Below are positions 456 through 35,621 of a stretch of 64,000 nucleotides of DNA, in pieces. Position numbers and translations under genes: made by a program. The DNA is from Hyphomicrobiales bacterium. Lineage in GTDB: Bacteria; Pseudomonadota; Alphaproteobacteria; Rhizobiales; Xanthobacteraceae. The DNA is taken from positions 1 to 64,000 of the forward strand of contig JAFKKM010000020.1 of NCBI GenBank assembly GCA_017305555.1, given 5' to 3'. Each line of letters opens with the position of its first letter. Positions within the stretch are counted from its first letter, which is position 1. The notes under the pieces are model-generated. The model did no database searches, was not told where the DNA came from, and saw nothing but the letters and a program-made list of their open reading frames with translations.

Positions 456-2675
456 ATGCGGTTTGATCTTTGGAGCAAAATCAAGGGCAGATTGCCGGCC
501 CGGCAGCCGCGCGTTGCCACCGTGGTCGCACCGAAGCCGAAAGCCAAGGCCGAGCCCGCGTTCACGCCGTCGCCGCAGCCCGCTCTTCCGCTTCAAGCCG
601 CTGAGTATGGCGATCTCGACATGCGCGTGATCTGGCGCGCCATCGTCGCGAAAAAGAACTTCATCATCATGCCGACGTTGCTGGCGGCCGTGGTGTCGCT
701 CGCCGTCGTCAACATGATGACACCGTTATACAAATCCGAGGCGCGCGTGCTGGTGGATGGACGAGAGAACGTCTTCCTGCGTCCCAATGGCGAACGCCCC
801 GAGGAACGCAACGCGCTCGATCCCGAAGCCGTCACCAGCCAGGTGCAACTGCTCCTGTCGCGCGACCTGGCGCGTATGGTGATCAAGCAGAATAAGCTCT
901 CCGAACGTCCCGAGTTCGATCCGGTGTTGAGCGGAATCTCGCCGGTGAAAATGGTGCTAGGCCTGTTCGGTATCGGTCGCGATCCGTTCCGGATGACGCC
1001 GGAAGAGCGCGTGCTCGATGCCTATTATGATCGGCTGACGGCCTTCGCCGTCGACAAGTCGCGCGTCATGGTGGTCGAATTCCAGTCGCGCGATCCGGAA
1101 TTGGCCGCGCGGGTCGCCAACTCCATCGTCGACAATTATCTTATCTTGCAGCAGAACGCGCGGCAGCAGCAGGCCAAGGCAGCGAGCCAATGGCTTTCGG
1201 GAGAGATCGATAGCCTGCGCAAGAAGGTTGCTGACGCTGAGCAGCGGGCCGAAGCCTTTCGCTCCAAATCCAGCCTGTTCGTCGGCACCAACAACACCAC
1301 GCTGTCCAACCAGCAACTCGGCGAGTTCAACACGCAGTTGAACAACGCGCGGGCGCTGAAGTCCGATGCCACCTCCAAGGCGAACATGATCCGCGATATG
1401 CTGAAATCCGGCAAGCCGATCGAAGCGTCGGAAGTGCTCAATTCCGAACTGATCCGCCGCCTGTCGGAACAGCGGGTGACGCTGCGGGCTCAACTTGCCG
1501 AGCAGTCATCGACCTTGCTCGGCGGTCATCCGCGCATCAAGGAACTGAAGGCGCAGATCGCCGATCTCGACAAGCAGATCCGCGAGGAGGCTGGCAAGCT
1601 GTCGCGCTCGCTCGAAAACGATGCCCGCATTGCCGAAGCGCGAGTTGAAAGCCTGAGCGCCAACCTCGATCAACTCAAGCGTCAGGCCACCTCGACCAAC
1701 GGTCAGGACGTCCAGCTTCGAGCGCTCGACCGCGAGGCCAAGGCCGAACGCGATTTGCTGGAATCCTATCTTGCCAAGTATCGTGAGGCGACTGCGCGCG
1801 AAAGCATCGACGCTGCGCCGGCCGATGGTCGCATCATTTCCCGCGGCATCGTCTCCAATACGCCGAACTATCCGAAAAAGTTGCCGATCGTGTTGATCGC
1901 CACGCTGGCGACGCTGATGCTGACGACGGGGTATGTGGCCAGCAGAGAGTTGCTGCGCATGACATCGCCGCGAGTGTCGATGGTTGTCGCTCCTGTGGTC
2001 GCGCCATCGATGACGGCAGCCATGCAGGACGTCGCCGTGCCGCAACCTGTATTCCATCAACCAAGCGGGCTAGGTGTGAGTGAACTCGAGCAGCTTGCGC
2101 TCGACTTGCAAAAGCCTGGTGTCGCCGCCCGCAAGCTAACGGTTCTCGGGAGCGGTTCGACCGAAAAGACCAGCCGCACCGCGCTCGCGCTGGCGCGGTT
2201 GTTAGCGCGGCGCGCCAAAGTCGTGCTGGTCGATCTGTCCGCTTCCTCGCAGGTCGCGAGGGCGGCGTCGGTTGATGGTGCCGCACCCGGCCTAACGGAT
2301 CTGATGCTGGGCGAAGCCTCGTTCGGTCAGGTCATCAGCAAGGATCGCACCTCATCGCTGCATCTGGTGACGGCGGGGCGTGCCAGCGCCGACCGCGCGT
2401 TGTTGCAGTCGCCACGCCTGACGTTGGCGCTCGATGCGCTGTTGCAAGCCTATGACCATGTCGTGTTGGACGCCGGTGCTGCCGACGACCTGCCGGCAGC
2501 GCTGTTGACGGCTGGCGCGCGTGCCGTCGTGGTCCCCGACGGCACGATGGGCATCGATGCGCGTCAATCGATGTCCGATCAGTTGCGGGCGGTGGGTTTC
2601 GGCGACGTCACCATGCTGAGCCAAGCGGCCCCGGTGAACCCCGACGAGCGCGGACCGCGCTTCGTAGCGGCGTGA
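456..2675 (+). CDS. Polysaccharide co-polymerase / BY-kinase-like chain-length determinant (GumC/ExoP family)
   Basis: A 739-residue inner-membrane protein of the Wzz/Wzc/ExoP type, which sets the chain length and helps export of an exopolysaccharide. A basic, Pro-rich cytoplasmic N-terminus is followed by TM1 (about 69-88), a Wzz domain, a long periplasmic coiled coil (about 230-450), TM2 (about 475-495) and a cytoplasmic ATPase-like domain (about 540-720). The kinase domain is degenerate. The P-loop reads GSGSTEKTS, with no Lys at the expected place. Walker A' reads VVLVDLSAS and lacks the second Asp. The C-terminus has no tyrosine cluster. It may therefore be a structural co-polymerase without autokinase activity. 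TAGGAG lies upstream of the ATG. No polymerase or glycosyltransferase genes follow on this strand. Confidence 0.85.
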   Translation: MRFDLWSKIKGRLPARQPRVATVVAPKPKAKAEPAFTPSPQPALPLQAAEYGDLDMRVIWRAIVAKKNFIIMPTLLAAVVSLAVVNMMTPLYKSEARVLVDGRENVFLRPNGERPEERNALDPEAVTSQVQLLLSRDLARMVIKQNKLSERPEFDPVLSGISPVKMVLGLFGIGRDPFRMTPEERVLDAYYDRLTAFAVDKSRVMVVEFQSRDPELAARVANSIVDNYLILQQNARQQQAKAASQWLSGEIDSLRKKVADAEQRAEAFRSKSSLFVGTNNTTLSNQQLGEFNTQLNNARALKSDATSKANMIRDMLKSGKPIEASEVLNSELIRRLSEQRVTLRAQLAEQSSTLLGGHPRIKELKAQIADLDKQIREEAGKLSRSLENDARIAEARVESLSANLDQLKRQATSTNGQDVQLRALDREAKAERDLLESYLAKYREATARESIDAAPADGRIISRGIVSNTPNYPKKLPIVLIATLATLMLTTGYVASRELLRMTSPRVSMVVAPVVAPSMTAAMQDVAVPQPVFHQPSGLGVSELEQLALDLQKPGVAARKLTVLGSGSTEKTSRTALALARLLARRAKVVLVDLSASSQVARAASVDGAAPGLTDLMLGEASFGQVISKDRTSSLHLVTAGRASADRALLQSPRLTLALDALLQAYDHVVLDAGAADDLPAALLTAGARAVVVPDGTMGIDARQSMSDQLRAVGFGDVTMLSQAAPVNPDERGPRFVAA

Positions 2676-2680
2676 AGTTG

Positions 2681-3877
2681 CTAGCGGTTCAATGAACCGC
2701 GGATGGTCTGCGCTGCCTTCATCAGCGCAGGCGTTTGTTTCACCAGACGCTTGAGGTGAGCCATCGCTGAGAGACCGCTTGCTGCCATCTTGCCGCGTGC
2801 GTTGAGGCCGATGAAGCTGTCGAAGATCGGCTCGTCGTTCTTGCAGAACAGGCGCTTGTACTCATCCGAGCCGATACCGAGATCGATCGCGCTATAGTTC
2901 AGCGCGGCATAGTGATCGACGATGTAGCGCATCAAGATAAGGCCCGGACTGAAGTGGGCGATGGCGGACAGCGTATAGGTGTTGAACATCATCGAAAAGC
3001 GGTCGCCGTCGGCGACGCCTGCGTAGATCGCGATCATCTCTTCGTCGCACGTCAGCGCGTGAATCTCGATCGCACGGCCGCCATCTGGAAGCTCGGTGTG
3101 GCAGGCGCGACGGATGAATTCCTCCACGCCCGGATCGGCGAAGACGTTGGGAAGTTTCTGCAATGCCATCCGTTGTGGTTTGACGGCGAAGAACGCATCC
3201 AGCAGCCGGGCGATATCCGTATCGGTTTCCGCCTTGAGGTAGCGATAGCCGGGGAGCGCCTGGAGTTTCTTCTCTTTGCTTTTCAGTCGGCGGCGGAACG
3301 AATTGCTGATGAGCGTGGTCGGGGCCGCGTTGACCTCGATCGACATCAGGGGACAGCCGTTGACCGCAGTTTGTGTGGGCAGCAACGCCATCGGGTTGGC
3401 GAGGTGCTGCCAGTGCCGCGGTTGCCGGGCCAGCGCGAGGGCATCGATGGTGAGGGCAGGCGCGCGTAGCGCGTCCAGTACGGCATCGATGTCGCCGCGG
3501 GTGGCGGTCGCGAGAAAGTCGCGGCGACAAATCGGCATGTTGAATGTGATGTGCTTGTCGCCGAGAAAGCTTGCGACTCTGACGCCATGATCGCGCTGAA
3601 TGCCGAATGGCAGCAGCATCAGCGGCTGGCGGCGCGCGTCGCGCGCCACGGCGATCAACGGTTCGACGCCGGTTTGAACGCCGATGTGATTTTGCCAGGC
3701 GGCGAGCAGGTCGAAGCGCTGATAGGGTGTCAGTACAGAACCGGGGCCTTCGAGGGCGCGCCAAGCCGGTTCGGCAGCGGCCATGTCGCGGAAAATCTCG
3801 ACGTCGGCCACCCGCGTGGCTTCGGCCTGCGCTCGGGTTTCAGTCACCCGGCTCTCGATGGCTGCCGCCATGGTCAT
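2681..3877 (-). CDS. GNAT-fold acetyltransferase, CelD/BcsL-like (Acetyltransf_6)
   Basis: A 398-residue soluble protein of the BioF2-like/CelD family, found near exopolysaccharide and cellulose loci. The N-terminal half has a typical entry (AAEPAWRAL, then TPYQRFDLLAAWQNHIG). The C-terminal half carries the GNAT domain, with ALNYSAIDLGIGSDEYKRLF near the end, a signature region of this family. I chose the ATG at 3877 (MTMAAAIES), which has AGGGTG just upstream; an in-frame start at 3949 would add 24 residues of unlikely composition. The gene converges on the co-polymerase gene, with the two stop codons 5 bp apart, which fits a polysaccharide-modification role. The substrate is unknown. Confidence 0.75.
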   Translation of the reverse strand: MTMAAAIESRVTETRAQAEATRVADVEIFRDMAAAEPAWRALEGPGSVLTPYQRFDLLAAWQNHIGVQTGVEPLIAVARDARRQPLMLLPFGIQRDHGVRVASFLGDKHITFNMPICRRDFLATATRGDIDAVLDALRAPALTIDALALARQPRHWQHLANPMALLPTQTAVNGCPLMSIEVNAAPTTLISNSFRRRLKSKEKKLQALPGYRYLKAETDTDIARLLDAFFAVKPQRMALQKLPNVFADPGVEEFIRRACHTELPDGGRAIEIHALTCDEEMIAIYAGVADGDRFSMMFNTYTLSAIAHFSPGLILMRYIVDHYAALNYSAIDLGIGSDEYKRLFCKNDEPIFDSFIGLNARGKMAASGLSAMAHLKRLVKQTPALMKAAQTIRGSLNR

Positions 3878-4000
3878 ACGCGCACCCTGTTCGTTAAGAC
3901 ATTTTTTATGTCTGTTGTTGCCGGAACCTTGGCAAACAAACGTCAACAAAGCGTAAGGGTGATCGTGGAGTCGTTGCCAGGCGGCGGACGGGAAGACCGC

Positions 4001-4213
4001 TTAGACCTCGGGGTCTGGTCGCGACATCCAGCTTATGATCGGCATTGCTGGCAGCACCCAGCCGATGCCGGCCACGACGTAGAAAATCGCCTGATACCAT
4101 CCGGAGGCGGCGAGCCAAGGCGTCTGCGCCACCGTCATGCCAAGCAGCGACCACACGACGACGAGGATGAGCAGGGCGATCGTGCCGAAGAATTTCCGGG
4201 TGCGGATGGTCAT
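4001..4213 (-). CDS. DUF2842 small membrane protein
   Basis: A 70-residue protein with two predicted membrane helices (about 9-29 and 39-60), separated by a short loop (TPWLAASGWYQ), and the ending SRPDPEV. Size, helix spacing and the WVLPAMPIISWM segment match the DUF2842 family of alphaproteobacteria, which has no known function. It is divergent from ctaA with 104 bp between start codons. That arrangement suggests membrane or respiratory biogenesis, but this is inference. Confidence 0.8.
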   Translation of the reverse strand: MTIRTRKFFGTIALLILVVVWSLLGMTVAQTPWLAASGWYQAIFYVVAGIGWVLPAMPIISWMSRPDPEV

Positions 4214-4317
4214 GACGCGAACGTGTAGAGATTGCCTGCCGGGAGATCAAGCACGGCTTGCGCCGTTCCGCCGCGCGGCTATAACGGCCATGAAATTCCT
4301 CTGAAATTACGGCTGAA

Positions 4318-5430
4318 ATGACCGAAATCCTGACTTCGGCGGAACCCGGCGCCAGCGCCGCGCCCGCCCGCATTCGCGCGGTGCGCTGGTGGCTCGTGAT
4401 CGTGGCTGCCCTGATCGCGCTGATGGTGCTGGTCGGCGGGGCGACGCGCCTCACCGAATCCGGCCTCTCCATCGTCGAATGGAAGCCGGTGACCGGAACG
4501 CTGCCGCCGCTCAGTGCGCAGCAATGGAATGAGGCGTTCGAGGGTTACAAGGCCATTCCGCAGTATCGCGAAATGAACGCCGGCATGACGCTGCACGAGT
4601 TCAAGACCATCTTCTGGTGGGAATGGAGCCACCGCCTGCTCGGACGGGTGATCGGGCTTGTCTATCTGCTGCCGTTCCTGTGGTTCATGTGGCGCGGCTT
4701 CCTGCCGGGCGATCTGAAACGTCGGCTGTGGGGCATCTTCGCGCTCGGTGCATTGCAGGGCGCGGTGGGTTGGTGGATGGTCGCGTCCGGCCTGACCAAG
4801 CGCGTCGAAGTCTCGCAATATCGGCTGGCGACGCACCTGTTGCTGGCGCTGCTGATCTTCGCGGCAATTGTCTGGACGCTGCGGCGGCTCTCGGAGCACG
4901 CGCGGGTTTCAAGCGCCGTGCGGCTCAAGGTGACGAGCGCGGTGCTGCTCGGGCTGGTGTTCCTGCAACTCTATCTTGGCGCACTGGTGGCAGGCCTGCG
5001 CGCCGGGAAGGTGTTCAATACCTGGCCGCTGATCGATGGTGGCTTTATTCCGAGCACAGCGCGGTTGTTCTTCGAGCAGCCATGGTGGCGCAATCTGTTC
5101 GACAATACGCTGACGGTGCAATTCAATCACCGCATGGTGGCCTACACGCTGTGGGTGCTGGCGATCCTGCATCTGGTCGATGCCGTCCGTGCGCGTGCCG
5201 ACAAGGCCGTGGTCAACGGTGCATTGTGGCTTGCCGCAGCGATGACCGTGCAGGCGACGCTCGGCATTCTCACGCTGCTGCATCAGGTGCCGATTTCGCT
5301 CGGGCTGGCGCATCAGGGCGTCGCCATCGTGGTGTTGACGCTGGCGATCGCTCAGGTCGAGCGGCTGAGTGTGCCCTTGTCGATGCGTGAGGCGAAAATA
5401 TCGCCGCTCACCGCCGACGCGGCGCGCTGA
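4318..5430 (+). CDS. ctaA: Haem A synthase (COX15/CtaA)
   Basis: A 370-residue multi-pass membrane protein that oxidises the C8 methyl group of haem O to make haem A for aa3-type cytochrome c oxidases. Eight membrane segments are apparent. The four conserved histidine regions are present: [33 protein letters not shown] and LAHQGVAI. The N-terminal [12 protein letters not shown] and [11 protein letters not shown] motifs are typical of the type-2 (proteobacterial/mitochondrial) form. The length is normal. The gene stands alone; the oxidase genes are not in this window. Confidence 0.96.
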
Positions 5431-5598
5431 GTGGAGCTATTCTAATCTTCGGATCGTGCAAAAACCTGCTGTTTGCAGGGGTTATTTGCATTTTTCCGGT
5501 GATGACGATGTCGTGTGCTGGCGGTTTGCTTCCGCGCAACACATTCGCGGGTTAGAACGAGCATCGTTTTATCGATCCGTCTATCCGAGAGCTAAGTT

Positions 5599-6411
5599 AT
5601 GTCCAGCGCCTTCATTCAGTCCACCGTCATCCTGCTTCGCGAGGGGCTGGAAGCGATGCTGGTGATCGCGGCACTCGCGGCCTATCTGACCAAGGCGGGC
5701 GGCGGCCATCGCGTGAAGTCGCTCTATGCCGGCGCGCTTGCGGCGACCGGCGTCAGCATCGTCGCGGCATGGCTGTTTGCGATGCTCAATTCGGGTCAGC
5801 ACAGCGATCTGATGGAAGGCGTCATCATTCTCTTTGCCGTCGCGCTGATGCTTTACGTCTCTGGCTGGCTGATGGTGAAGCAGGATCCGCAAGGCTGGAA
5901 AGAGTATCTCGCCGCCAAGGCCGACAATGCATTGGCGCAGGACACCGCGTGGGCGGTCGGCGCGCTGGCGTTTCTGGCGGTGTTTCGCGAGGGTGCGGAG
6001 ACCGTGCTGTTCATCAACGCGCTCGCGACCACTGAGGGTGGTTGGAGCGTCGGTCTGTTCGGCGGCCTTGCCGCGGCCACGCTCGGGCTCGCGGTGCTGT
6101 TCTACTTCATCAATCTGATCGCGCAGAAAATCCCGTTGCGACCGCTGTTTATCATCACCTCGGCGTTCCTGTTCGCGATGGCGATCAAATTCATTGGCGA
6201 GGCGGTGCAGGAATTCCAGGAGCAGTCGATCCTGCCGTTCACCCAGGTCACGGGGGCGGATTGGCTCTCCGCGATCGGTCTTAATCCGACGGTGGAAGCC
6301 CTGTCGCTGCAACTGCTGGTGATTTTTTTCGCGCTCGCGACCTATTCGCTGGTGGTGCGCAACAATCGCCTGACGCGGACGGACAAAGCCGCGCGGGAAG
6401 GGAAGGCGTAG
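5599..6411 (+). CDS. FTR1-family iron permease (EfeU-like)
   Basis: A 270-residue inner-membrane protein with about seven helices. The two REGxE iron-binding motifs that define the FTR1/EfeU family are present: LLREGLEAML near residue 14 and FREGAETVLF near residue 135. It is expected to import ferric iron after oxidation of Fe2+. EfeO and EfeB are not adjacent, so the oxidase partner is elsewhere or absent. The start at 5599 places REGLE at its usual position. The 168 bp upstream region contains isolated TTCTAA and TTAGAA hexamers about 106 bp apart, too far apart to call an Irr box. Confidence 0.9.
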   Translation: MSSAFIQSTVILLREGLEAMLVIAALAAYLTKAGGGHRVKSLYAGALAATGVSIVAAWLFAMLNSGQHSDLMEGVIILFAVALMLYVSGWLMVKQDPQGWKEYLAAKADNALAQDTAWAVGALAFLAVFREGAETVLFINALATTEGGWSVGLFGGLAAATLGLAVLFYFINLIAQKIPLRPLFIITSAFLFAMAIKFIGEAVQEFQEQSILPFTQVTGADWLSAIGLNPTVEALSLQLLVIFFALATYSLVVRNNRLTRTDKAAREGKA

Positions 6412-7955: not shown

Positions 7956-8549
7956 TTAGGCATTATTGTTCTTGTCGTCCTTGATTTGCGCCGCGCGGTC
8001 CGCGGCGTTGGTGCCGCCGCCGCTGACACTCACCCGATTGAGCGACAGCCGCATACCCTGTGTCGGGACCGGTGCGCGCTTCGAACTCAGCGTGCGCGAG
8101 TTGACGCCCATCCAGGAAATCTCCGACGACAGCCGGCCGTATTCGATTTTCGGGCAGCGGTTCATCACCACTTGCAGCCCGGCGGCTTCCGCGAGCGCAC
8201 AGGCTTCATCGTTGCGAACGCCAAGCTGCATCCAGATCACTTTCGGCAGAGGGTTGAGCGTCAGCGCATCCTTGACCAGCGGCAGCGCCGCGTTCGAGTT
8301 GCGGAAAATGTCGACCATGTCGATGGGGCGGTCGATATCGGCGAGCGAGGCGACGAACGGTTTGCCCATCAGATTTTTGCCGACCTGTCCGGGATTGACC
8401 GGGATCATGTCGTAGCCGCGCTGCGCCAGATATTTGAAGGCGAAGTAACTCGGCCGCACGTTGACAGGCGATGCGCCGACCATCGCGATGGTCTTCACGT
8501 TGTTGAGGATGCTGCGGATGTAATTGTCGTCGTAGGTGTCGTGATTCAT
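7956..8549 (-). CDS. CoA-binding domain protein (YccU-like)
   Basis: A 197-residue protein with an N-terminal Rossmann CoA-binding domain (TIAMVGASPVNVRPSYFAFK, then GYDMIPVNP), as in YccU and in the first domain of acetyl-CoA ligases. The core domain ends near residue 140 (NRCPKIEYGRL). It is followed by a low-complexity, Gly- and Asn-rich tail ending KNNNA. No catalytic role is established for the family. It lies between enoyl-CoA hydratase (50 bp upstream) and metY on the same strand, suggesting co-transcription. Confidence 0.88.
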   Translation of the reverse strand: MNHDTYDDNYIRSILNNVKTIAMVGASPVNVRPSYFAFKYLAQRGYDMIPVNPGQVGKNLMGKPFVASLADIDRPIDMVDIFRNSNAALPLVKDALTLNPLPKVIWMQLGVRNDEACALAEAAGLQVVMNRCPKIEYGRLSSEISWMGVNSRTLSSKRAPVPTQGMRLSLNRVSVSGGGTNAADRAAQIKDDKNNNA

Positions 8550-32294: not shown

Positions 32295-32302
32295 GGGATT
32301 TT
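32295..32302. repeat. Target-site duplication, left (GGGATTTT)
   Basis: Eight bases immediately outside the left terminal repeat, repeated exactly at 34392-34399 outside the right end. Eight bases is the duplication length known for the IS1595 family. Confidence 0.9.
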
Positions 32303-32327
32303 CAGATTTATCCCTTGACGACAAGTA
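32303..32327 (+). repeat. Left terminal inverted repeat
   Basis: It begins CAGATTTATCCCTTGACG and continues ACAAGTA. It matches the complement of the right end at 24 of 25 positions; the single difference is A against C at position 19. Confidence 0.92.
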
Positions 32328-32385
32328 ACAATATCCGTATTCTATCCCTCAATCGCAGGTAGAAAGCCGCGAAAGGGATAGGGCG

Positions 32386-33261
32386 ATGGCGAAATACACG
32401 TTCAAACAGTTCCAAGAAGAGTATCCGAACGACGCTGCCTGTCTCGCCAAACTGATGGAAATCAACTTCGGCGGGACGGAGATCGTTTGTCCCGGTTGCA
32501 AACAGCGGGCAACGTTCCACCCCATGAGCAAGCGCCGCGCCTATGCCTGTCAGGCGTGTGGTCATCACGTTTATCCGGCCGCTGGCACGATCTTTCATAA
32601 GTCGCGGACCAATCTGACAAAGTGGTTCTTTGCCATGTACCTGATGACCAGCACGCGCCACGGCGTTGCCGCTAAGGAGGTGCAGCGGCAGTTGGGTGTC
32701 ACCTACAAGTGCGCATGGCGCATGTGCCACGAACTCCGCAAGCTGATGGCGTCGGCTGACGACAAATGGGGCGGCCCGATGGATGGCCATGTTGAAATTG
32801 ACGAGACCTTCGTCGGCGGCAGACGCAAGCACGGCGAGCCCGACAACAAGACGGTCATGTTTGGAATGCTTCAGCGCGATGGCCGCTTATTGGCCGCGCC
32901 GATCCCGGATGTGACGACCTACACCGTTGAAGGCATCATCAACGAAAACATTCCGGTCGGGACCGTCATCAGCACCGATGAAAGCTGGGTCTATCATGGC
33001 CTCAAACACGTTTACGAGCACGGCACAGTGAACCATTCGGCGAAGGAATATGTTCGCGGCGTCCATCATGTGAACGGGCTGGAAAGCCATTGGTCGCTGT
33101 TTAAGCGCGCCATCAAGGGCACGCACGTTCACATTTCGGCCAAGCACTCTTGGAAGTATGTCAGTGAATTCAGCTACCGCCGCAACATGCGTAAATCGCA
33201 CTGGGCGATGTTTAATCTTCTTGTGGAGGCTTTCGCGCTGCCGCGCCTACAAGACGCATGA
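32386..33261 (+). CDS. IS1595-family transposase (zinc ribbon plus ISXO2-like domain)
   Basis: A 291-residue transposase. The N-terminal zinc ribbon has CPGC (residues 35-38) and CQAC (55-58). A helical linker follows (YLMTSTRHGVAAKEVQRQLG). The catalytic domain has the first acidic residue in HVEIDETFVGG, the second in VISTDESWVYHG, and the third region in HHVNGLESHWSLFKRAIKGT, in agreement with the DDE-type centre of this family. It appears intact. TTGACG inside the left end may be part of its promoter. Its last 50 bp overlap the convergent protease gene. Confidence 0.95.
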   Translation: MAKYTFKQFQEEYPNDAACLAKLMEINFGGTEIVCPGCKQRATFHPMSKRRAYACQACGHHVYPAAGTIFHKSRTNLTKWFFAMYLMTSTRHGVAAKEVQRQLGVTYKCAWRMCHELRKLMASADDKWGGPMDGHVEIDETFVGGRRKHGEPDNKTVMFGMLQRDGRLLAAPIPDVTTYTVEGIINENIPVGTVISTDESWVYHGLKHVYEHGTVNHSAKEYVRGVHHVNGLESHWSLFKRAIKGTHVHISAKHSWKYVSEFSYRRNMRKSHWAMFNLLVEAFALPRLQDA

Positions 33262-34354
33262 AATCCTCTCTGTGAGTGGGGTTTGCGTCGCTGGCGAGAG
33301 GGGAAGACTCTGCGACGGGAGGCACCGTCCCCTCAGATTTCAATCTCTCCAGCAACAAAGCATTAGTATCGTCGCGATCTTTCTTTAATTTTGGCAAATT
33401 CATAACTTCCCAAATTGTCCAAGCAGGTAGTAGGCATGTCATCCCGCTTAGGCCCTTTATATATTTGCCATGCTGAATGAGAGGAACGTCGCCCGTAGAT
33501 TCACCCTTTTGCTTTTTGAGATTTCCTTCTGCTATTTCCCATTGTTCTGGGAATTGAGCGAAGTGCACCCCGAGCAGACTTAGAAGGTTCGTGCCTGACA
33601 GTAAAATTTCTTGTGTATCAGGTGTATCTCCAAGCCTCTCTTCTAAGTCGTATCCTGGGGTTCTATAGATGAAAACGGGAGAACCTGAATAGCCACTACG
33701 GGAATGCAGATCGACGCAATAGCAATCAGCCATAAAACCATTCGGTTGCTGAATTGGAGCTGGCATCACACTAATATTGCCAAATCTCACAGCGGGTCTG
33801 TTGATCGGACCGCCGTCATGGTCGATGAACCTACCAACCATAAAAACATCTTCCCCCGGACCTAGTTTCTCTCTTTCAATGATTTCTTTAGTCACGAATG
33901 TATTTGGGGCTTTAATCATCGAAAAGAGGTGAGATTGGTTTAGGTTCAGCCTTATTACAGCGATGTCAAATCTAGGGTCGAACTCCCAATCCTCCGGACC
34001 GAAATCAAAAATATCCGTCCCACCGTCCTTTTTGTTGACACGCAATACAGATGCCCCATCGCGCACCGCGACGTGCCAATTCGTGACTGCGTAGACGAAA
34101 GCCCGGTCACCATGATCGGCCGGAACCGCGACGAAAAATGCGGTCCCACCGAAATCTCTGCCTGCCTCTGCATCGGCGACATTATGATAGAGATAGGCGA
34201 CACAATTCAGCGTCTTTGACGGTATGCGTGGCACGCCGATTGACTCCATTCTTGAGAACCGTGTCCCGCCCGTAGACACATGGCTTATTTGCCGTTTCTC
34301 AAAATCTAAGCCCGACAAGAAGTCCAGAAAATTATTGGTTGATGAAGCGAACAT
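33212..34354 (-). CDS. Trypsin-like serine protease, transposon passenger
   Basis: A 380-residue protein with a chymotrypsin/HtrA-type peptidase fold. The triad can be placed at His94 (VTNWHVA), Asp130 (RFDIAVIRL) and Ser223 (SGYSGSPVF). There is no signal peptide, PDZ domain or membrane helix, so it should act in the cytoplasm. The ending GAAARKPPQED is polar. The likely start is the ATG at 34354, only 12 bp from the right terminal repeat; an internal ATG at 34249 (MESIGVPRIP) would still keep the triad. It is AT-richer than its neighbours, a sign of transfer. It is not needed for transposition in known family members, so I treat it as a passenger. Confidence 0.85.
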   Translation of the reverse strand: MFASSTNNFLDFLSGLDFEKRQISHVSTGGTRFSRMESIGVPRIPSKTLNCVAYLYHNVADAEAGRDFGGTAFFVAVPADHGDRAFVYAVTNWHVAVRDGASVLRVNKKDGGTDIFDFGPEDWEFDPRFDIAVIRLNLNQSHLFSMIKAPNTFVTKEIIEREKLGPGEDVFMVGRFIDHDGGPINRPAVRFGNISVMPAPIQQPNGFMADCYCVDLHSRSGYSGSPVFIYRTPGYDLEERLGDTPDTQEILLSGTNLLSLLGVHFAQFPEQWEIAEGNLKKQKGESTGDVPLIQHGKYIKGLSGMTCLLPAWTIWEVMNLPKLKKDRDDTNALLLERLKSEGTVPPVAESSPLASDANPTHREDFMRLVGAAARKPPQED

Positions 34355-34366
34355 GTTCTCTACTCA

Positions 34367-34391
34367 TACTTGGCGTCAAGGGATAAATCTG
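34367..34391 (-). repeat. Right terminal inverted repeat
   Basis: On the minus strand it reads CAGATTTATCCCTTGACG and then CCAAGTA, matching the left end with one mismatch. Confidence 0.92.
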
Positions 34392-34399
34392 GGGATTTT
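34392..34399. repeat. Target-site duplication, right (GGGATTTT)
   Basis: An exact copy of 32295-32302, directly outside the right terminal repeat. Confidence 0.9.
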
Positions 34400-34405
34400 C
34401 AAAAA

Positions 34406-34420
34406 GAACATATTGCGAAC
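34406..34420 (+). promoter_or_regulatory. LexA (SOS) box of recA
   Basis: GAAC, seven bases (ATATTGC), GAAC: the direct-repeat LexA site of alphaproteobacteria. It overlaps a candidate -35 (TTGCGA, 34413-34418), with TACATT at 34436-34441 as the -10, spacing 17. It lies 113 bp before the recA start and 6 bp from the target duplication of the insertion element. Confidence 0.88.
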
Positions 34421-34532
34421 AAGGAACAAATAGGGTACATTCTCGGCCATCCGAATTGACGACCCAAGTTTCTGTTCAGCCTCGTCCGCCTTCGTTGTCC
34501 CCCTGGCGAATCCCGTTCATAAGGAGCACCAC

Positions 34533-35621
34533 ATGTCTGCTACTGCCCTGCGTATCGTCGAAGGATCCTCCATGGACAAGACTAAAGCGCTGTCCGCCGC
34601 GCTGTCCCAAATTGAGCGTCAGTTCGGCAAGGGCTCGGTGATGAAACTGGGCAAGAACGACCGCTCGATGGACATCGAGACGATTTCGTCGGGGTCGCTC
34701 GGGCTGGACATCGCGCTCGGCGTCGGTGGGTTGCCGAAGGGACGCATCGTCGAGATTTACGGGCCGGAATCTTCGGGTAAGACCACGCTGGCGCTGCATT
34801 GCGTGGCGGAGGCACAGAAGAAGGGCGGCATCTGCGCCTTCATCGACGCCGAGCACGCGCTCGACCCGGTCTATGCCCGCAAGCTCGGCGTCAATGTCGA
34901 CGAGCTTCTGATTTCGCAGCCCGACCATGGCGAGCAGGCGCTAGAGATCGCCGACACGCTGGTGCGCTCCGGCGCGGTGGACGTCTTGATCATCGATTCG
35001 GTGGCCGCGCTGGTGCCGCGCGCCGAACTCGAGGGCGAGATGGGCGATGCGCTGCCGGGCTTGCAGGCGCGGTTGATGAGTCAGGCGCTGCGCAAGCTGA
35101 CCGCCTCGATCAACAAGTCCAACACCATGGTGATTTTCATCAACCAGATCCGCATGAAGATCGGGGTGATGTACGGCTCGCCGGAAACCACCACCGGCGG
35201 CAACGCACTGAAGTTCTACGCTTCGGTGCGGCTCGATATCCGCCGCATCGGCGCCATCAAGGAGCGTGACGAGGTGATCGGTAACTCCACCCGCGTCAAG
35301 GTGGTGAAGAACAAGCTGGCGCCGCCGTTCAAGCAGGTCGAATTCGACATCATGTACGGCGAGGGCGTGTCGAAGATGGGCGAAATCCTCGATCTCGGCG
35401 TCAAGGCCGGGATCGTCGAGAAGTCGGGCGCCTGGTTCTCCTACGACAGCCAGCGGCTCGGGCAGGGTCGCGAGAACGCCAAGGCCTTCCTGCGCGCTAA
35501 TCCGGACATGACGGCCAAGATCGAGGTCGCGATCCGGCAGAATTCCGGGCTGATCGCCGAGCAGATTTTGGCTGGCACGCCGGAGCGCGATGCGGACGGC
35601 GAAGAGCCTGCGGAAGATTGA
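34533..35621 (+). CDS. recA: Recombinase A
   Basis: A 362-residue DNA strand-exchange ATPase and SOS co-protease. The Walker A motif is [12 protein letters not shown], Walker B is [12 protein letters not shown], and the L2 loop region contains the conserved [20 protein letters not shown]. The ATG at 34533 has AAGGAG upstream and adds 13 residues ([13 protein letters not shown]) before the usual MDKTKAL start at 34572. An intact SOS box lies upstream despite the neighbouring insertion. The acidic tail ([12 protein letters not shown]) is normal. Confidence 0.98.

Follow-up and report, generated by a model that had tools for sequence, protein, structure and literature searches.

A protease-carrying IS1595-family transposon beside recA and the spacing of its lineage from LexA boxes

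Insertion sequences of the IS1595 family usually generate an 8-bp target duplication (PMC8101967), and members of the family that carry passenger genes, the 'transporter IS', were described by Siguier, Gagnevin and Chandler (2009, as cited in PMC3129680 and PMC8101967). The transposon lineage analysed here resembles them in its transposase domains, 8-bp duplications, inverted ends and one or more passenger genes. It differs in the choice of LexA boxes, in the exchange of cassettes behind a constant tail and in a protease cargo, features that are not described in the open-access portion of these sources. Transposons of the Tn7 type also exploit a host site that is conserved and adjoins an essential or conserved gene, which is left unbroken; the Tn7 site lies downstream of glmS. 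The present lineage, in contrast, has a single-protein IS1595 transposase, is found upstream of SOS promoters, and no separate target-selector gene was identified in it. We know of few simple insertion sequences that choose a host regulatory site.

The protease also has described counterparts. With the HtrA/DegS-type proteases it shares the predicted fold (DegS, MamO, Deg8) and the His-Asp-Ser triad, but it has neither a signal peptide nor a membrane anchor and the sequence identity is about 15%. As Pfam gave no match to a PDZ domain, the combination of PDZ domain and extracytoplasmic location by which HtrA proteins are recognised is not found. PDC-S45 is a phage defence candidate that occurs also in Sinorhizobium prophages (PMC12429752). 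The PADLOC profile of this candidate family matches the protease domain, but here the protein stands alone inside a transposon and has a transposon-specific C-terminal tail. LypA and LypC are trypsin-like peptidases of the CARD-NLR systems of Caulobacter (PMC13236601), in which a cytoplasmic trypsin-like peptidase serves as an immune effector in a host that is likewise an alphaproteobacterium. Unlike these systems, the element holds a transposase and a protease only, with no CARD, ATPase or NLR partner gene.

Architecture of the element and of its lineage

The window is the whole stretch of 64,000 nucleotides that was analysed, from contig JAFKKM010000020.1 of a Hyphomicrobiales bacterium (GCA_017305555.1). 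The initial annotation had placed a complete IS1595-family element at 32295-34399, and the inverted ends, the GGGATTTT duplication and the intact transposase on which that assignment was based are all present. The element itself is 2,089 bp long (32303-34391) and is bordered by the two copies of the 8-bp duplication GGGATTTT, the left at 32295-32302 and the right at 34392-34399. Its inverted ends of 25 nt, the left one CAGATTTATCCCTTGACGACAAGTA (32303-32327, forward strand) and the right one on the passenger side (34367-34391, reverse strand), are complementary at 24 positions (96%). The transposase (32386-33261, forward strand, 291 aa) consists of a Zn-ribbon and a DDE domain (Pfam Zn_ribbon_IS1595, PF12760, 1.3e-8; DDE_Tnp_IS1595, 9.6e-35), matches NCBIfam NF033547 at 4.2e-52, and has its residues D139, D198 and E233 invariant in the alignment. 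The DDE domain, the N-terminal Zn-ribbon, the 8-bp duplication and the inverted ends place the element in the IS1595 family, and the protease, a gene unrelated to transposition that lies inside the inverted ends (32303-34391), makes it a transporter IS. A chance origin of this architecture is excluded because dozens of genomes contain the same arrangement together with perfect 8-bp duplications. The element is thus a passenger transposon of the IS1595 family that is present as a single copy in its genome; the three other IS1595-type transposases of the host are just 28-36% identical to its transposase.

The protease alone, used as a query against genome contigs, found no relatives because its core diverges too fast. 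Relatives were gathered by a family-wide genome search with the protease, followed by transposase searches and retrieval of the contexts. Protease homologues are found in 12 of the 392 genomes of the family, and several of them adjoin close transposases. The lineage assembled in this way comprises 57 distinct elements whose ends could be recognised; 53 of them are flanked by perfect 8-bp duplications, and four (L055, L061, L062, L066) have inverted ends only. Their length ranges from 1.2 to 4.6 kb, and almost every one has one or more passengers, the 1,195-bp element L146 being the closest to a bare insertion sequence. A search for relatives outside the Alphaproteobacteria, where LexA boxes differ, gave none among 214 genomes. 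The protease is the standing cargo of the whole branch to which the window element belongs: all 13 members with a readable cargo gene carry it (the window element, L022, L023, L024, L028, L034/L030, L069, L070, L073, L075, L076, L126 and L127, L034/L030 being one element split over two contigs). In the sister branches other, unrelated genes are the passengers; most encode small membrane proteins of no known family.

The protease gene (33212-34354, reverse strand, 380 aa) converges on the transposase gene, and the 3' ends of the two overlap tail to tail by 50 nt (33212-33261). The C-terminal tail of the protease, residues 356-380 (33215-33289, reverse strand; DANPTHREDFMRLVGAAARKPPQED), extends over the transposase 3' end. 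Every element-borne protease of the branch terminates in DANPxHREDFxxLLxxAARK, and the solo homologues do not have this tail. A convergent open reading frame covers the transposase 3' end in 45 of the 57 elements. In the sister branches it is a separate small frame, similar in position and partly similar in sequence to the protease tail, which might be a fused form of this small frame.

When the window element is compared to its sister element L028, the two are 86% identical over positions 1-1000, which contain the left end, the transposase and the tail (32303-33302), and are then unrelated until the terminal 24 bp. At the protein level the identity is 94% for the transposase and 92% for the tail, but 26% for the protease core. 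The core identity is about 32% in all pairs, irrespective of how similar the transposases are. A break after about 920-990 bp is seen also in the pairs L061/L062, L064/L066, L199/L063, L199/L200, L201/L202 and L054/L203, the partners of which carry different passengers. The transposon therefore has a constant half and an exchangeable cassette, which in the window element consists of the protease core and its 5' region (33303-34367) and has no nucleotide similarity to L028. As judged from these alignments, the protease core is a replaceable cassette behind the constant half. The exchangeable core with its constant tail, the branch-wide protease cargo and the fixed distance to the recA LexA box described below go beyond the initial annotation.

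A probable transposase promoter, read from the sequence, is situated at 32315-32343 (forward strand), with a -35 hexamer TTGACG within the inverted end and a -10 hexamer TATTCT 17 nt away; most relatives have a -35/-10 pair in the same position with the same spacing. In most of the 57 elements the left end contains a TTGAC -35-like hexamer that is followed, nearly always after 17 nt, by a -10-like hexamer, and the pair is likely to be a built-in transposase promoter. A passenger promoter that would start from the right inverted end was rejected as a general rule, since the right ends, unlike the left ones, have no consistent -10.

Two cargo arrangements differ from those above. In L023 a second passenger (2666-3676) of 336 aa, which contains a metallopeptidase-like HELSH motif and may have a membrane segment, lies between the transposase and the protease. 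The sister element L128 (2034-5582, reverse strand), which is inserted in the loop of the palindrome CTTGCCCAACAAATTTATTTTTTGTTGGGCAAG, carries a 787-aa protein of the restriction-modification type (PADLOC matches MTase_I, 1.7e-32, and type IIG, 2.3e-31).

The protease

A trypsin-like passenger with the triad His94-Asp130-Ser223 and no signal peptide had been proposed in the initial annotation, and both properties are borne out. The Trypsin_2 match has a score of 27.1 bits, slightly under the Pfam cut-off of 27.6, and H94, D130 and S223 are invariant across 13 divergent homologues and again across 11 element-borne proteases. No hydrophobic N-terminal segment or signal peptide is found by Kyte-Doolittle analysis of the first 75 residues, where the maximum mean over 15 residues is 0.57; a signal peptide is present in the solo homologues L029 and L032. 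A search by sequence returned no solved structure. The AlphaFold model (mean pLDDT 73.9, pTM 0.70) was matched by Foldseek to DegS, MamO and Deg8 with a TM-score, normalised by target, of up to 0.74. The comparison with HtrA and with phage-defence proteases, which had been suggested earlier, has thus given a DegS/MamO-like predicted fold and a match to the PADLOC candidate defence model PDC-S45 (PDLC05022; 2.7e-10, profile positions 33-237 of 293). The latter match recurs in all 11 element-borne proteases scanned, that of L023 being weak.

No homologue of the protease was found in named phages, and plasmids contain only two distant solo homologues. One of them, on an Agrobacterium plasmid (L021:4989-7139), is beside a gene for a TIR-domain protein; the other, on an Acetobacter plasmid (L020:1-5511), is beside helicase, methyltransferase and nuclease genes of the restriction type. 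The surroundings of both are defence-like. Tailed proteases adjoining an IS1595 transposase were also seen on two viral or proviral contigs of IMG/VR (L167 and L169).

LexA boxes at a fixed distance from the element end

The right end of the window element faces recA (34533-35621, forward strand). The LexA/SOS box of this gene, GAACATATTGCGAAC (34406-34420, forward strand), is the sole LexA box in the window, is an exact match, and has its first base 15 bp outside the element. It fits the Caulobacter consensus GTTCN7GTTC, which is the reading of the opposite strand (PMC9578287). The box is 113 bp upstream of the start codon of recA and 52 bp from that of the protease. A candidate recA core promoter read by eye, TTGCGA-17-TACATT (34413-34441, forward strand), overlaps the box and is undamaged by the insertion. 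A consensus promoter scan gave nothing at its threshold in the recA region and no promoter for the protease near the LexA box.

In each of the other seven genomes of the genus the recA box is present and no element lies at this offset; the G094 match runs across the joined junction, from which the element is absent. The two genes together at this locus in relatives devoid of the inverted ends or of the duplication, which according to the initial annotation would speak against a transposon, were not encountered; the genus relatives have the recA site and no element. In L063, of the same genus, an element (3982-5777) is separated by about 2.8 kb from the recA box downstream of it at 8536, and the right flank of this element contains an apparently inverted recA-upstream sequence, as if a rearrangement had followed the insertion.

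The flanks of the lineage were scanned to 200 bp for GAACN7GAAC with at most one mismatch, the offset being the start of the box outside the element end. In 30 of the 57 elements a box begins 15-17 bp outside one end. Exact boxes are found at right offsets 15, 16 and 17 in 7, 14 and 1 elements, respectively (22 of 57), and in one element at left offset 16; there are no exact right-side boxes at any other offset up to 200. The host genome contains 150 GAACN7GAAC patterns in 5.17 Mb, from which chance alone would give about 0.005 exact hits in 57 elements, and the background of one-mismatch boxes is 0.11 per offset. A test set of eight further complete elements, retrieved after the idea had been formed, contained six box-positive ones. 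Whichever way the element is oriented, the box reads GAAC outward in every case. The positives share little beyond the LexA half-sites, the 7-nt spacer varying freely. As the other 27 elements, including the five protease carriers L073, L075, L076, L126 and L127, have no box at that offset, target selection is not absolute or is lineage-specific.

Neighbouring genes of box-positive elements were identified as follows, the five test-set elements with the recA-type box being outside this list. The window element, L028, L055, L061, L062, L064-L066, L147, L152, L163 and L164 are beside recA, as is L134 by its left end. L053 has lexA at its left end. A gene for a DnaE-type polymerase (DnaE/PHP) follows L022, L068 and L160, behind a short open reading frame, a UvrD-type helicase gene adjoins L070 and, by the left end, L157, and a ribonucleotide reductase gene adjoins L153. 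L069 of Mesorhizobium also adjoins recA, where a degenerate box with two mismatches is at offset 16 from the left end. On the transposase tree the box-positive elements cluster, their state requiring 8 changes vs 19 with shuffled labels. Many of the positive cases are recA insertions in a single family, and not all of them are independent. A single, vertically inherited recA insertion was rejected as the full explanation: the duplications are not the same in different genomes, the elements carry unrelated cargos, and insertions at this offset are found at other genes too.

Target choice and the role of the cargo

Taken together, the analysis makes it quite probable that the element is a passenger transposon, built of a constant half and an exchangeable cassette, from a lineage that selects SOS operators as target sites and carries what may be an SOS-influenced effector. 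As the comparison shows, the lineage inserts just upstream of SOS genes, with 6-8 bp between the 8-bp duplication and the box GAACN7GAAC. The face of the box on which it lands does not vary, and in most cases it is the passenger end that is turned to the box. The transposition complex would recognise the LexA-box region, either as LexA bound to DNA or as the DNA itself. Such a conserved landing site would leave the SOS promoter intact and place the passenger beside the LexA operator, and the cargo is then likely to be influenced by the SOS response through this adjoining operator; SOS control of the protease is plausible. Less firmly, the protease might be an intracellular effector that responds to stress or to phages, to the advantage of the host or of the element.

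That an ordinary IS1595 insertion reached this position by accident, and that its cargo gene is a neutral hitchhiker, is scarcely credible: passenger-carrying members have been known since 2009 (Siguier et al., as cited in PMC3129680), but the triad is invariant among proteases that are about 32% identical, the open reading frame is kept in all carriers, and the offset statistics exclude an accident for the lineage. Random insertion, with survival only upstream of SOS promoters where the cargo is harmless and expressed on demand, would account for the spared promoter and for the identified neighbours of the box-positive elements, which are all SOS-type genes. It would, however, permit a range of distances, whereas only 15-17 is seen, with nothing at 12-14 or 18-20 on the right side, and the offset is common to unrelated cargos and to different transposase branches; such survivorship is quite improbable. 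The fixed offset, the polarity, the several SOS genes, the different transposase branches and the different cargos argue that the transposition machinery chooses its target. There is nearly an even chance that it does so by the DNA sequence alone, the transposase reading GAACN7GAAC or flexible AT-rich surroundings with the LexA protein uninvolved. This would fit the fixed spacing and the polarity in both element orientations, and the box-less sister branches have no common substitute, as if their DNA-recognition part differed, but the 7-nt spacer is free to vary and, half-sites apart, the positives have little in common. Guidance by LexA is possible, if somewhat doubtful: the complex would dock on LexA-bound operators and install interchangeable effector cassettes as SOS-inducible genes near recA, lexA, dnaE, uvrD and other SOS genes.

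For the protease, the intracellular, stress- or phage-responsive effector role is tentatively favoured because of the PDC-S45 match, the plasmid solo homologues near TIR and restriction-type genes, and the CARD-NLR precedent; defence may be its function. Of the initial interpretation, the element and its cytoplasmic protease passenger stand, and the toxin, defence-effector or anti-regulator roles are still suggestions, to which PDC-S45 lends some support. The main alternative is a regulatory role in transposition or on LexA, in which the protease would serve the element: trimming of the transposase, of the tail partner or of LexA would regulate transposition or the SOS response. The stable protease-transposase linkage in the branch, the constant tail overlapping the transposase gene, the placement at LexA boxes and the presence of lexA itself next to L053 are consistent with this. 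Yet there are sister elements that share the target and have tail-like small frames but carry unrelated proteins, mostly membrane proteins, and solo homologues occur with no transposase at all, which makes service to the element unlikely.

A search of the open-access literature returned nothing relevant on insertion sequences that choose LexA/SOS boxes or on IS1595 together with LexA, and as far as that literature goes the landing rule, a fixed distance from LexA sites, is apparently undescribed. Landing at LexA operators with interchangeable, operator-facing cargo connects transposition with the SOS response and with effector-gene capture in a way that can be tested, and predicts that unknown effector genes should be looked for beside SOS boxes in alphaproteobacteria. 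LexA guidance, if true, would be a mobile route by which the DNA-damage alarm of the host acquires new functions that respond to stress or to phages. Targeting of a common operator by a single protein may also be of interest for the study and design of site-directed transposons.

Some of the insertion sites have further features. The L053 element beside lexA (1549-4981) has extra right-end-like copies at 1549 and 2341 and a duplication-like ATCYTAAT, which suggests that insertion at this site was nested or occurred more than once. In the right flanks of L022, L023, L068 and L160, a conserved open reading frame of about 30 codons (e.g. MFRALMEEAAALTSLALFIGMVVIWAQV) follows the LexA box and precedes the dnaE-type gene.
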